Source: Bacteroidota bacterium (GTDB taxonomy: Bacteria; Bacteroidota; Bacteroidia; UBA7662; CANHCV01). Taken from it: a stretch of DNA of 64,000 nt. Location of the stretch: assembly GCA_947501265.1 (NCBI GenBank), contig CANMVY010000011.1, positions 1-64,000 on the forward strand, written 5' to 3'. Shown here piece by piece: positions 42,568-49,593 of this stretch (its first letter is position 1; the number at the start of each line of letters is the position of its first letter). Below the pieces are notes generated by a model. The model was given only the letters and a program-made list of their open reading frames with translations. It searched no databases and was not told the origin of the DNA. Position numbers and translations under genes: made by a program.

Positions 42568-43926
<1,359 letters not shown>

Positions 43927-44004: not shown

Positions 44005-44041
44005 TTTGATAAGAGAAAATAAATTTTTAGATTTGCCTAAA
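44005..44041 (+). promoter_or_regulatory. Promoter TTTG-N19-TAGATTTG overlapped by DtxR/MntR-like inverted repeat TTTAGATTTGCCTAAA
   Basis: -33 TTTG at 44005-44008, -7 TAGATTTG at 44028-44035, inverted repeat TTTAG-N6-CTAAA at 44026-44041; ATG at 44053. Confidence 0.6.
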
Positions 44042-44052
44042 TTTTTATTTTG

Positions 44053-45762
44053 ATGAGGCGAATTGTTTTTACATTGCTGCTGCTGTTTCAGCTTAATGCC
44101 TTTGCTCAAATTGTAGCTACCACCTCTTTTTTGGCAGACATCACCCAGAACTTGGTAGGAAAGCATAAAAAAGTACTTTCTCTTTTACCGGTTGGATCGG
44201 ATCCACATATTTATGAGCCGGTTCCGGGAGATGTTCGAACGTTGGCCGAAGCAGAGTTCATTGTAAAAAACGGGTTACATTTGGAGGGATGGCTGGATAA
44301 AGTTCTCGAAAATTCGGGAACCATGGCCAATGTGGTTACGGCAACCCAAGGAATTTCTCCGATTTCGGCTCAAGGTTTCCAAAATGCCTATGATCCACAC
44401 GCTTGGATGAGCGTAAAAAATGCAAAGATTTACGCCAGCAATATTGCTCGTGAGTTAAAACGAACCTTTCCAGAAATTCAACAAGAAATCGAAACAAACA
44501 CTAGCGCTTATCTTTCAAAATTAGAAGAATTGGATCGTTGGGTGCGGGATCAAATTCAATCGATACCCATTGAGAAACGGGTATTATTTACGTCTCACGA
44601 TGCTTTTCGGTATTTCGGAAAAGAATACGGCATTCAAGTGGAATCCATCTTGGGAACCTCAACCGATGCCGATGTTCGCATTGAAGATTTGGATCGAATG
44701 ATTTCGAAAATTGATCAAACCGGGGTGGCGGCCATTTTCGTTGAGAGCACCATCAACCCTAAAATGATGCAACAAATTGCCCGAGATTCTGGCGTAAAAA
44801 TTGGTGGAAATTTGTTTGCCGATAGTTTGGGTCCAACGGGCTCTGAAGCAGAAACGTACTTGGGCATGATTCGCCACGACGTTAAAACCTTGGTGGAGGG
44901 ACTTCGGCAGCAGCGGACACAAAACAGCGCTTCTACCTCTTTTACGTTGTTTTTAGTGGTATTAAGTACGTTATTAGCCGCGTCTTGGATTTGGTTAGGT
45001 TCAAAGGTTCGCAAAAAAATAAAGAGTGAAATTGTTCCCCATGCGCAACTTCAGATTTCAAATATTTCGGTTACCTATGATCAGGTTCCTGTGTTTTCAC
45101 ACCTTCATGTAACCCTTCATTCTGGTAGAATTTACGGCATGGTGGGTCCCAATGGTTCAGGAAAAAGCACCTTGGTGAAAGCAATTTTGGGTCATCAACC
45201 ATTAGAATCAGGATCCATCGTTTGGAAAAACGTTCCTTTGCTCAAGCAATCCGGCGAAATTTCGTACGTCCCTCAAAAAGATGAAATCGATTTTTCTTTC
45301 CCGGCTACGGCTTACGATGTGGTAAACATGGGACAATACCGCCGGGAAGTTACGAAAGAAGAAATTCAGGTTCAAATGGAGCGATTGGGCATTTGGGAAT
45401 GGAAGAATCGCCCCATCGGTCAACTCTCAGGTGGACAACAGCAACGGTGCTTTGTGGCTCGTGCCTTGGTTCAAAACGCGCCCATCATCATTTTGGATGA
45501 GCCGTTTGTGGGGATTGATGCCACCACCGAAGCAAAAATTATGGAAGTATTAAGGGCAGAAGCCCAAAGGGGAAAACTCATTTTGGTTATTCACCACGAT
45601 TTGTCCAAAGTGAAGCAATATTTTGATGAAGTTTTGATGATGAATCGGCGGTTGGTGGCAAGTGGTCCTGTAGAAGAAACCTTTACCGCCGAAAACATCG
45701 AAAAAACGTTTTCTGCCCCAGGAATCCATTTTCACCAAGCCCAACAATTGATGAAGTCATGA
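44053..45762 (+). CDS. Fused metal ABC transporter: periplasmic solute-binding domain - TM helix - ABC ATPase domain
   Basis: N-term IVATTSFLADITQNLVG...DPHIYEPVPGDV...DPHAWMSVKNA (ZnuA/TroA type); TM FTLFLVVLSTLLAASWIWLG; C-term GPNGSGKSTLVKAILG, LSGGQQQRCFVARAL, IIILDEPFVGID (ZnuC/TroB type); no stop between. Confidence 0.88.
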   Translation: MRRIVFTLLLLFQLNAFAQIVATTSFLADITQNLVGKHKKVLSLLPVGSDPHIYEPVPGDVRTLAEAEFIVKNGLHLEGWLDKVLENSGTMANVVTATQGISPISAQGFQNAYDPHAWMSVKNAKIYASNIARELKRTFPEIQQEIETNTSAYLSKLEELDRWVRDQIQSIPIEKRVLFTSHDAFRYFGKEYGIQVESILGTSTDADVRIEDLDRMISKIDQTGVAAIFVESTINPKMMQQIARDSGVKIGGNLFADSLGPTGSEAETYLGMIRHDVKTLVEGLRQQRTQNSASTSFTLFLVVLSTLLAASWIWLGSKVRKKIKSEIVPHAQLQISNISVTYDQVPVFSHLHVTLHSGRIYGMVGPNGSGKSTLVKAILGHQPLESGSIVWKNVPLLKQSGEISYVPQKDEIDFSFPATAYDVVNMGQYRREVTKEEIQVQMERLGIWEWKNRPIGQLSGGQQQRCFVARALVQNAPIIILDEPFVGIDATTEAKIMEVLRAEAQRGKLILVIHHDLSKVKQYFDEVLMMNRRLVASGPVEETFTAENIEKTFSAPGIHFHQAQQLMKS

Positions 45763-46997
45763 ACGAGTTTTTGAATTTATTTGAATACGCTTACGTAGGC
45801 AGAGCCCTGATGGCCTCTTCCATGGTTGGCATCATGTGCGGCGTTTTGGGATGCTTTATCGTACTTCGAAACATGTCGCTCATCGGAGATGCGTTGTCTC
45901 ATGCTATTCTTCCGGGCGTTGTTGTTGGTTTTTTAATAGCAGGAGCCCAAACGTTCGCATTTTTTACAGGATCGGTGGTTGCGGGTATGGTGGCTGCGGT
46001 TTTGATAACGGCTTTACAACGGCACGCAAAGACCAAAAACGATGCTGCAATTGGAATTGTATTTACTTCGATGTTCGCCTTGGGAGTAATGGGAATAAGT
46101 GCTCTTACCCGAAAGGAAGGGGTTCATTTGGATTTGAAGGATTTTTTATTTGGAAACGTTTTGGGCATTGGGCCGCAAGATATTTTATTGACCGGTTTGA
46201 TGTTGTTTTTTGTTATTGCTTCGGTGGCATTGTTTTATAAAAGCTTGTTTATTTCCACGTTTCAGCCCAATTTATCAGCAACCTTGGGAGTTCCTTCGGG
46301 ATTGATTCACTATTTTTTGATGTTATTGCTCAGTTTGGCAGTGGTGTCGTCGTTGCAATCGGTTGGAGTTATTTTGGTGGTGGCAATGTTAATTATTCCG
46401 GCTTCAACAGCGTATTTGCTCACCAATCGATTGCCGTGGATGTTGGTTATTTCTGGTTCAATTGGAGCCGTTTCGGCTTTGTTAGGAATGATCTGGGCAA
46501 TCATTTGGGAAACCACACCTGGACCAGCCATGACCTTAACCGGTAGTGCAATATACCTTACCGCACTTCTTTTTTCTCCCCAAAAAGGAATGATCGTTCG
46601 GTTTTTCAGGAAGAAATCTCGTCAAAAAGATCATCAGTGTGAAGATTTATTGAAAGAAGTTTACAAGGTTCAATTTGGAGAGAAGAACGGGAATGGAAGT
46701 TGGTCGGAACAGCAATTTTATGCGTCTAAAAACTCCTGGAAACGGTTGGAAAAAAAGGGCTGGAAAAGATCTGGCCTTCAACAACTAAGCGAAGAAGGAA
46801 TTCTAAAAGCTGAGTCGCTGATTCGTGCCCACCGATTGTGGGAGAGTTATTTGCACCAATTGGGCGTAACCGAAGAAGAATTGCACCCTATGGCCGAATC
46901 GTTGGAACACCATTTGCATGCCGAATTTTTGAAGGAGCTCGACAAAGATTTGGGTCATCCCGATAAAGATCCTCACGGTTCTAGCATTCCAAGATAA
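45759..46997 (+). CDS. Fused metal ABC transporter permease (ZnuB/TroC type) with C-terminal DtxR/MntR-like regulator domain
   Basis: Permease: GVLGCFIVLRNMSLIGDALSHAILPGVVVGF; C-term: LSEEGILKAESLIRAHRLWESYLHQLGVTEEELHPMAESLEHHLHAEFLKELDKDLGHPDKDPHGSSIP; 4-bp overlap with upstream gene. Confidence 0.9.
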   Translation: MNEFLNLFEYAYVGRALMASSMVGIMCGVLGCFIVLRNMSLIGDALSHAILPGVVVGFLIAGAQTFAFFTGSVVAGMVAAVLITALQRHAKTKNDAAIGIVFTSMFALGVMGISALTRKEGVHLDLKDFLFGNVLGIGPQDILLTGLMLFFVIASVALFYKSLFISTFQPNLSATLGVPSGLIHYFLMLLLSLAVVSSLQSVGVILVVAMLIIPASTAYLLTNRLPWMLVISGSIGAVSALLGMIWAIIWETTPGPAMTLTGSAIYLTALLFSPQKGMIVRFFRKKSRQKDHQCEDLLKEVYKVQFGEKNGNGSWSEQQFYASKNSWKRLEKKGWKRSGLQQLSEEGILKAESLIRAHRLWESYLHQLGVTEEELHPMAESLEHHLHAEFLKELDKDLGHPDKDPHGSSIPR

Positions 46998-47031
46998 AAA
47001 GAAAGGAGGCCAATCGGCCTCCTTTCTTTTT
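46996..47031. terminator. Bidirectional terminator between convergent permease and OmpA-family genes
   Basis: AAAAAGAAAGGAGGCC-AATC-GGCCTCCTTTCTTTTT, 16-bp perfect stem. Confidence 0.9.
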
Positions 47032-47043
47032 GATCGTCGGGAA

Positions 47044-49593
47044 TTACGGTTTGTACACCTTCAATTCAACGCGTCTGTTTTTGCGTTTGTTTTCCGCAGT
47101 GTTGTTTGGCGCAACGGGAACAGAAGATCCAAAACCTTTGGCAACAATGCGGTTGGTAGGTACCCCTTTGGAAACGAGGTAGTTTTTCACTTCGGTTGCT
47201 CGGCTTAAACTTAATGCTTGGTTTTTAGCAGCTCCACCTTCGTTATCGGTGTGGCCAGAAACTTGAAGGAAGTAAGCCGGTTTTTGAATCATAATCATCG
47301 CCAAAGAATCCAATCCAACTTTTGATTGGATGGAAATGATGGCTTTCCCGGTTTCAAACGTTAGGGTTTCGAATGCTTTCTTCAAGATTTCTTGCTCTTC
47401 GGTCTCCAAATTAGCCGAAATAACATCTTTTTTCACCACCAACGGACATCCATTATTTTCTTTCGTTCCGTACTCATTCGGGCACTTGTCGTCGGGATCG
47501 GCAATGCCATCCAAATCAGAATCTTTGCAACCTTTGAAAGCCGCCAAACCTGCGATGGTTGGGCATTTATCGTCTTTATCGGCAATTCCATCTTTATCGG
47601 TATCGGGGCAACCTTTGGTTTTGGCGGTACCGGCTTCGGTTGGACAGGCATCTTCTGCATCGGCGATTCCATCTTTATCGGTGTCGGGACAGCCCATCAA
47701 AGATTTTAATCCGGCTACGGTTGGGCATTTATCGTCAACATTGGCAATGCTGTCGTTATCGGAATCAGGACATCCGTTTAAGAAAGCTTTTCCTGCGATG
47801 CTTGGGCATTTATCGTCTTTATCGGCAATTCCATCTTTATCGGTATCGGGGCAACCTTTGAATTCTTTGATTCCCGCAACGGTTGGACATTCATCTTCCT
47901 TATCGGCAATTCCATCCTTATCGGAATCGGGGCAACCTTTGAATTCTTTGATTCCAGCTACATCTGGGCACTGATCGTCTTTATCGACAATTTTGTCGCC
48001 GTCTTTATCGGGACAACCTTTGGTTTCCCAAGGTCCTTTTTCACCATCGCATTTATCCATTTTATTGGAAACGCCATCGTTATCCTTGTCTTTCCAAGCT
48101 TTGTGGTAAAGAGGAATGGTTGCTCCGGCGTAAAGATCGATTCCGTTGAAGGTGGTTTTTCCGAAGAATCCTCCGATGTTATCGGAACCGATGAAAATAG
48201 GTCCGAAACGAGCGAAGGCACCAATTTGGAATTTGGTGTAGTCGAATGCGCTCATCATGGGAAGGGCAAATTCCAAGTGGCGGAATTCAACGCGAGGGCT
48301 GATGGCCAACATGGAAGGGGTGCGAACGGCAATCGCATTGGTTTTGCGAAGACTTTGCACCCAGTTACCGGAAACGTAAAAGAAACGATTGATTCTCCAA
48401 TCGAAATTGATGTTGAAGGTGGTTGGCAAACCAACGGAATAGCTGGTTGCGCTATCGGTATGTTGAATGATTTTACCAACGGCTCCGGCAAAACTAGAGG
48501 TAGTCGTTAGCCCCAAAGTATCCAGTTGTCCCCATTTCACGGTATCGGAATTGGCAAGGAGGCGAAGTTGATATTGGCGCACCCATTCAGAACTGCTGTA
48601 GTTGATGGATCCCAAATCGTTCAAGGAAACACCAATTTTATAGAGGTATTTGTTGCGGTCTCGTTTCCACTTCATTTCGTTATCGATGGATTGGTAGAAA
48701 TCAGACCACTTGGGGCGGAATTCATACACCACACCGAAATCGAATCCAAGTCCACCGCCCAATTGGCGTTTCAATGTTTCACCCAAACCCAACGCTAAGG
48801 TTCGGTTAGAACCGCTTGGAGCAAAAATGCCGTAGTATTGTTCTTTTACATATCCGTATGAAATTTCATTCTGAGTAAGAACCAAAGAGTCGGAGTTGTA
48901 GAAGTTGATGTTAACTCCTTTGTTCTGGATGTACATGTTGTAAATTCCAGTGAGCGATTTAACGGTTACTCCACCTTTCAGAAAGTGTTGTTCTTTGTTG
49001 ATAATAACGCCACCGAATGTGAGCGCATTTTCTGCATAACTGTTCACCATGAGCCCAAATTTGGCATCGGCGTGGAATTCGTTATTCAAATCAGGAAAAT
49101 CCAAACTGTATCGGGCCAATCGAACCAAAGACTCGTTCATTCCATTCAATTGGACCGTAGTTTTTACTCGATTCGAGTAGGCTAAACCGAAGTTTTTTCC
49201 CAATCCAACAAAAAAGCTTGGGCCCATGATATCGTTGGATATGTTCACGGTTTTATCTTTTCCATTGAGCACTTCTTTCAAATAGGAATCTTGCCATACT
49301 GGAGCCCCATTGAAAGAATCGGTAATGGCAGTTGGGTCTTTGATTCCCGCTTTAGCAATTTCATAAAAGGAGTATGGGGTTTCGGTAACGAGGTAATTGT
49401 TGGAGAAATTAAATCCGGCATTGAAGAGGTTCAATTGAAACTTCATTCGGTTATCGGCAGCGTTGGCGGGATTGGTACGGATGCTGGAAACTCCTCCAAA
49501 ATTGGAATTGTAATAACCCAATTGATATTGTGCAATAACGGGGCTTGCGAGCGATAAAAGGAGGAAAAATCCGAGGATTTGCAGTTTTTTCAT
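47044..49593 (-). CDS. OmpA-family outer-membrane protein with beta-barrel-like N-terminus, TSP type-3 Ca-binding repeats and OmpA C-terminal domain
   Basis: 849 aa; repeated DxDKDGIADKDDKCPTxAG units; YFLQVSGHTDNEGGAAKNQALSLSRATEVKNYLVSKGVPTNRIVAKGFGSSVPVAPNNTAENKRKNRRVELK. Confidence 0.92.
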   Translation of the reverse strand: MKKLQILGFFLLLSLASPVIAQYQLGYYNSNFGGVSSIRTNPANAADNRMKFQLNLFNAGFNFSNNYLVTETPYSFYEIAKAGIKDPTAITDSFNGAPVWQDSYLKEVLNGKDKTVNISNDIMGPSFFVGLGKNFGLAYSNRVKTTVQLNGMNESLVRLARYSLDFPDLNNEFHADAKFGLMVNSYAENALTFGGVIINKEQHFLKGGVTVKSLTGIYNMYIQNKGVNINFYNSDSLVLTQNEISYGYVKEQYYGIFAPSGSNRTLALGLGETLKRQLGGGLGFDFGVVYEFRPKWSDFYQSIDNEMKWKRDRNKYLYKIGVSLNDLGSINYSSSEWVRQYQLRLLANSDTVKWGQLDTLGLTTTSSFAGAVGKIIQHTDSATSYSVGLPTTFNINFDWRINRFFYVSGNWVQSLRKTNAIAVRTPSMLAISPRVEFRHLEFALPMMSAFDYTKFQIGAFARFGPIFIGSDNIGGFFGKTTFNGIDLYAGATIPLYHKAWKDKDNDGVSNKMDKCDGEKGPWETKGCPDKDGDKIVDKDDQCPDVAGIKEFKGCPDSDKDGIADKEDECPTVAGIKEFKGCPDTDKDGIADKDDKCPSIAGKAFLNGCPDSDNDSIANVDDKCPTVAGLKSLMGCPDTDKDGIADAEDACPTEAGTAKTKGCPDTDKDGIADKDDKCPTIAGLAAFKGCKDSDLDGIADPDDKCPNEYGTKENNGCPLVVKKDVISANLETEEQEILKKAFETLTFETGKAIISIQSKVGLDSLAMIMIQKPAYFLQVSGHTDNEGGAAKNQALSLSRATEVKNYLVSKGVPTNRIVAKGFGSSVPVAPNNTAENKRKNRRVELKVYKP
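47450..48085 (-). repeat. Tandem coding repeats (TSP type-3, about 8-9 units of ~75 nt)
   Basis: Repeated 'GGGCATTTATCGTCTTTATCGGCAATTCCATCTTTATCGGTATCGGGGCAACC'-like blocks. Confidence 0.85.

Follow-up and report, generated by a model that had tools for sequence, protein, structure and literature searches.

The only manganese/iron-type ABC metal importer of the freshwater Bacteroidota bacterium analysed here is encoded by two fused genes (44053-46997 of the window, i.e. of the whole stretch of 64,000 nucleotides that was analysed); the first joins a substrate-binding protein (SBP) through one transmembrane (TM) helix to the ABC ATPase, and the second joins the permease to a DtxR-type domain. 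The former fusion, undescribed as far as we found, is yet the standard form throughout the order. Our tentative reading of the latter, which we hold at a little under an even chance, is that a DtxR-fold repressor has lost DNA binding and may now act as a metal-responsive post-translational brake on an Mn/Fe importer whose SBP is joined to the ATPase.

Gene organization and domain architecture

An earlier note, made from the letters of this DNA alone, had proposed two complementary fusions, and the domain-architecture search bore this out: ORF1 matched PF01297 (ZnuA; residues 20-283, 263 bits) and PF00005 (ABC_tran; residues 350-485, 105 bits), and ORF2 matched PF00950 (ABC-3; residues 10-272, 231 bits) and PF02742 (Fe_dep_repr_C; residues 345-412, 79 bits), the DNA-binding half of DtxR (PF01325) not being recognised in this search of ORF2. 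The features are listed in Table 1. The translational coupling of the two genes suggested in that note is probable from the stop-start overlap. The unit is flanked by a divergent glutamate dehydrogenase gene (42568-43917, minus strand) and by a convergent gene for an OmpA-like protein (47044-49593, minus strand), whose sequence shows thrombospondin type-3-like DxDxDG calcium-binding repeats in series. The Bacteroidota promoter consensus is -33 TTTG/-7 TAnnTTTG, and the promoter ahead of ORF1, with its 19-bp spacing, matches it; the hairpin directly 3' of ORF2 is probably a (bidirectional) terminator.

Table 1. Features of the importer operon and of the TonB-dependent receptor gene
Feature	Position	Strand	Basis
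Promoter: TTTG (44005-44008), 19 bp, TAGATTTG (44028-44035)	44005..44035	+	Read directly
Palindromic operator TTTAGATTTGCCTAAA, overlapping the -7 element	44026..44041	.	Predicted stand-alone DtxR/MntR site
ORF1, SBP-TM-ATPase fusion	44053..45762	+	569 aa; open frame
Signal peptide (MRRIVFTLLLLFQLNAFA-Q...)	44053..44109	+	Sequence; hydrophobic N-terminal helix in model
TroA/PsaA-type substrate-binding domain	44110..44907	+	PF01297; invariant columns; PsaA alignment
Single TM helix, residues 297-319, then basic residues (positive-inside)	44941..45009	+	AlphaFold2 helix
Complete ABC ATPase domain: Walker A GPNGSGKST, signature LSGGQ, Walker B, H-loop	45046..45759	+	PF00005
ATGA stop-start overlap, ORF1 stop/ORF2 start	45759..45762	+	Junction read in sequence
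ORF2, permease-DtxR fusion	45759..46997	+	412 aa; open frame
PsaC/TroC-type permease	45759..46598	+	PF00950; PsaC alignment
Degenerate winged-HTH region	46635..46790	+	No PF01325 match; deletion within HTH
DtxR metal-binding/dimerisation domain	46791..46994	+	PF02742, 79 bits; metal ligands kept
Perfect 12-bp hairpin and T run	47000..47031	.	Directly 3' of ORF2; read directly
TonB-dependent receptor, 702 aa, conserved ETNCQTCNYTQLRMNGL motif	L202:738-2843 (G000 contig C1)	-	

With AlphaFold2, ORF1 was modelled as two confident domains joined by one helix (mean pLDDT 84), and a hydropathy peak supports the TM helix in the orthologue from the congener (L087). This single helix agrees with the topology proposed before (exported binding domain, TM crossing, cytoplasmic ATPase), and the fixed 1:1 ratio of SBP to ATPase, also claimed then, is likewise supported. 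Foldseek matched ORF1 to PsaA, MtsA and AztC and to PsaB, of which 7kyo was the nearest solved chain to the ATPase half; among the best PDB matches, no chain spanned both the SBP and the ATPase domains. The ATPase motifs were intact in the alignment. ORF2, folded as a monomer, gave a permease with an attached C-terminal domain (moderate model; pLDDT 75, pTM 0.65), and was matched to PsaC and, more weakly, to the Mn-dependent repressor DR2539.

The DtxR domain fused to the permease

PF02742 was recognised in 32 of 32 fused proteins and PF01325 in two of them, clearly in the protein of Bacterium HR37 (53.7 bits) and below the cut-off in L146. The columns of MntR D8, H77, E81, E99, E102 and H103 were invariant in all 27 non-redundant fused DtxR domains (27/27), and the conservation of the recognition helix was 0.19 in these 27 domains against 0.72 in 33 stand-alone DtxRs. 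Comparison of the fused and stand-alone proteins within the same nine genomes, which controls for lineage, gave a pairwise identity of 0.19 (fused) versus 0.57 (stand-alone) for the HTH, with the fused value lower in 36 of 36 pairs, and of 0.63 versus 0.68 for the metal domain. As for the window's genus, a deletion was found within the HTH of the fused DtxR. Since the metal ligands are invariant and the recognition helix is eroded, we consider that DNA recognition has gone from the fused domain while the metal site has stayed; DNA binding thus appears to have been lost. Regarded as a DtxR/MntR repressor, the fused domain has PF02742 with its ligands and lacks PF01325 with a conserved recognition helix, and the earlier label of a DtxR/MntR-like domain holds for the metal domain and fails for the DNA-binding half.

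The domain layout, the conservation, the selection (see below), the operator distribution and the eroded HTH with its retained ligands are all read from sequence; a post-translational role of the fused domain, most simply transinhibition, is what we infer. No longer a DNA-binding repressor in this proposal, the domain would bind cytosolic metal and dimerise beneath the permease, and plentiful metal would thereby slow the transporter. Transinhibition is preferred because the cytoplasmic domains of MetNI and ModABC, which are substrate-sensing brakes, give the precedent (PMC10710835). Metal storage, a role in dimerisation or stability, or the binding of a protein partner would fit an eroded HTH with retained ligands as well. 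The main rival to the brake is that the fused DtxR is a passive relic, or serves structurally as a dimerisation clamp and senses no metal for regulation, a reading for which we see perhaps a one-in-four case: dimerisation by itself could stabilise a permease homodimer, and the apparent loss of DNA binding and the missing FeoA/SH3 tail (absent in this genus, present in many relatives) are in keeping with it, whereas the invariant ligands, the dN/dS of the C-domain (0.025) and the residue at MntR position 8, which is D in every fused copy and N in most stand-alone copies, argue against it.

Importer type and transported metal

A functional importer of the PsaABC/TroABCD type (cluster A-I; Mn/Zn/Fe) is well supported by its predicted parts, namely, a ZnuA/TroA-family SBP with a four-residue site, an ABC-3 permease with the Asp/His pair, and an ATPase with its motifs. 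None of the predicted SBP ligands (H52, H116, H182 and D257) varied among 19 fused homologues, and they align with the metal site of PsaA, H182 standing where PsaA has Glu205, which gives a TroA-like set of 3 His and 1 Asp. From the PsaA alignment, the SBP is nearest to PsaA/TroA (Mn/Fe type) and not to classic ZnuA, so that the TroA side of the previous ZnuA/TroA assignment stands and the ZnuA side does not. TroA is a Zn/Mn-binding protein with His at the third ligand place, and the same set in our SBP therefore makes no choice between Zn and Mn. In the permease, D44/H48 were aligned with D46/H50 of PsaC, the residues that coordinate Mn there (PMC11779740).

Among solved structures, the nearest relatives are PsaBC (an Mn transporter), PsaA, and the Mn-dependent repressors DR2539, SloR and ScaR. 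The genome has one SBP, one PF00950 permease and one Fur-family protein, and a search of it for Nramp found none; nearly every genome of the order likewise has one SBP and one permease gene. With a single permease gene per genome, a permease homodimer is the simplest assembly, and one transporter, with two tethered binding domains, would then consist of two chains each of SBP-TM-ATPase and permease-DtxR. The metal is most likely Mn2+ and possibly Fe2+. An importer of unchanged architecture that serves primarily for zinc is, in our judgement, unlikely (about one chance in five); the 3-His/1-Asp site and the zinc protein AztC, which was the top NCBIfam match of the SBP half, albeit below its cut-off, speak for zinc, but the best solved relatives are Mn systems, the candidate stand-alone regulator resembles MntR and not Zur, and, in this genome, the Mn route of the Nramp family is absent.

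Predicted operator and stand-alone regulator

The exact pattern TTTAGN6CTAAA occurred at 3 sites in the 2.33-Mb genome, whereas the reversed control pattern occurred at 20. Besides the operon site, the second exact palindrome lies about 49 bp upstream of the TonB-dependent receptor gene; the third (C2:186894) lies inside a PAS-kinase ORF and was taken as chance. The exact operator was found upstream of the fusion gene in 15 genomes of the order, and, in 20 of 20 loci in which a stand-alone DtxR gene is located directly before the SBP, a site (≤1 mismatch) precedes the DtxR gene, these loci not being phylogenetically independent. Related TonB receptors with an NCQxC motif were preceded by the operator in 11 genomes of the order (five genera), and the receptor behind the palindrome is probably the outer-membrane half of the importer pathway. 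Note that, in three genomes of genus g6 (L194, L195 and L196), the palindrome precedes a conserved predicted lipoprotein of about 173 aa (NGCQ...), which is possibly another metal-regulated gene.

Nearly every genome of the order has one stand-alone DtxR beside the fused one; the stand-alone protein contains PF01325 (60 bits), PF02742 and FeoA. Because it is intact and the operator tracks its gene, the stand-alone MntR/DtxR is the likely repressor of the operon; when loaded with metal, this separate MntR/DtxR-FeoA protein would repress both the operon and the TonB-dependent outer-membrane receptor at TTTAG-N6-CTAAA. The idea in the earlier note that a transcriptional regulator had been compressed into the transporter had to be abandoned, given this separate protein and the lack of a conserved recognition helix in the fused copy. 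In Chlamydia, cleavage separates YtgR from YtgC, and YtgR represses ytgABCD (PMC5599777); a protease could in the same manner free the DtxR part here for metal-dependent repression of the operon. The domain order is identical to that in Chlamydia, an operator is present at the operon, and the fused domain of HR37 has an intact PF01325; however, across the genus and the order the HTH and the recognition helix are eroded or deleted, PF01325 is missing from ORF2, and the operator tracks the gene of a separate, intact DtxR, so we regard such a released repressor as quite improbable.

Conservation and distribution of the fusions

The congener (G002) has the same layout, with products of 570 and 412 aa. 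The dN/dS values between the two species (SBP, 0.055; linker and TM, 0.165; ATPase, 0.010; permease, 0.021; DtxR C-domain, 0.025) indicate that both fusions are under strong purifying selection. In the order UBA7662, the SBP was found in 20 of 21 genomes, 17 of them with an uninterrupted frame of 573-732 codons; the other copies were fragmented, mostly at contig ends, or incomplete. Ten of the long frames were translated, and the ATPase motif was present in all ten. Class-wide, the SBP family was found in 107 of 395 genomes; besides the window's order, families f4, f64 and f76 had the long fused frame, and most others were stand-alone SBPs of about 300-350 aa. On this survey, the SBP-TM-ATPase fusion is the standard form in the whole order and in several other Bacteroidia families. 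That a sequencing or assembly artefact erased a stop, or hid a frameshift, between SBP and ATPase is virtually excluded by the independently assembled congener, the 17 full-length copies of the order and the purifying selection throughout, and the first reading of ORF1 as one continuous frame is sound.

In many Saprospiraceae/Lewinellaceae (e.g. Lewinella cohaerens, Neolewinella), the SBP ends in a TM helix followed by a stop codon (80 named loci), and in many cases an ATPase gene lies within about 100 bp downstream. The SBP tree placed 40 fused and 35 anchored forms, so labelled (like the plain forms) by motif and a hydropathy cut-off, in one clade of 76 (support 100/98) with L022 as the single unanchored exception, and the plain SBPs of Ignavibacteria, Armatimonadota, Symbiobacterium, HR37 and other Bacteroidia fell outside it. 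The base of the clade was poorly resolved; the fused L093 and L094 nest within the anchored SBPs, which requires at least two fusion or fission changes. The forms with SBP-TM and a separate ATPase may mark the way in which the fusion arose, or a reversal of it. The permease-DtxR fusion also occurs in the plain-SBP loci of Ignavibacteria, Armatimonadota, Symbiobacterium and HR37, and by this comparison it is older than the SBP-TM-ATPase fusion.

Several single loci deserve mention. In HR37 (L159), no stand-alone DtxR was seen in the locus of the permease-DtxR with intact PF01325, possibly an ancestral, YtgCR-like state. In G099 (L040 and L086), the SBP-ATPase fusion and the permease-DtxR are on separate contigs (C118 and C81, respectively), and the SBP-ATPase gene has no permease gene after it; the operon appears to have been split though both fusions persist. 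Between SBP and TM helix, L044 and L049 (genus g5) have a periplasmic linker that has grown to dozens of low-complexity residues (e.g. QETGSGALQETGSG), and a long insert also follows the signal peptide. Three MAG records titled Sphingomonadales (L119, L158 and L161) seem to be mislabelled, as their SBP-ATPase fusions fall with those of the window's Bacteroidota order; L158 and L161 cluster among members of this order in the SBP tree.

Comparison with known systems

All three components are homologous to those of the cluster A-I importers PsaABC (Streptococcus pneumoniae), TroABC and MntABC, with a homodimeric permease likely; the present system differs in that SBP and ATPase are one polypeptide connected via a TM helix and the permease bears a DtxR domain. 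The binding proteins of ABC importers have usually been described as free, lipid-anchored or fused to the permease. Importers of the OpuA/GlnPQ type have the SBP as a fusion with the membrane domain and contain two SBPs per complex; the covalent tethering and the pair of SBPs would be shared here, but a TM helix of its own links the SBP to the ATPase and not to the permease. The anchored SBPs of Lewinella, Neolewinella and Flavilitoribacter belong to the same clade and have the C-terminal TM helix, often with the ATPase gene immediately downstream, but a stop codon parts the two.

The closest counterpart of ORF2 is YtgCR of Chlamydia trachomatis, in which the permease and a C-terminal DtxR are also one chain in a metal-importer operon (PMC5599777), although YtgR is a released DNA-binding repressor, whereas the present domain has lost the recognition helix and coexists with a separate regulator, and although the SBP and ATPase of the Ytg operon are separate genes, which are fused here. 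The proposed logic resembles that of the C2 domain of MetNI and of ModABC, in which a cytoplasmic dimerising domain binds the substrate and stops the importer; the transporter studied here carries a cytoplasmic DtxR domain with conserved ligands, for which inhibition is predicted, but this domain has the DtxR fold and sits on the permease rather than on the ATPase. The importer class is ordinary and the permease-DtxR fusion is known in kind, as the earlier note had surmised. That note also took the SBP-ATPase fusion to be the rarer one and considered that the architecture might prove widespread and already characterised; it is widespread (the order and other Bacteroidia families), and no description of an SBP-ATPase fusion through a TM helix was found in the literature searched, most subscription journals lying outside it.

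Taken as a whole, the account of a homodimeric Mn/Fe importer, repressed by the stand-alone protein and braked by the fused DtxR, seems to us somewhat better than an even bet. If it is true, periplasmic substrate loading and the cytoplasmic motor would be on one chain. The eroded fused DtxR, the most testable surprise of this operon, would be a concrete case for metal transinhibition of Mn/Fe importers, and may offer another view of the permease-DtxR fusions in other phyla.
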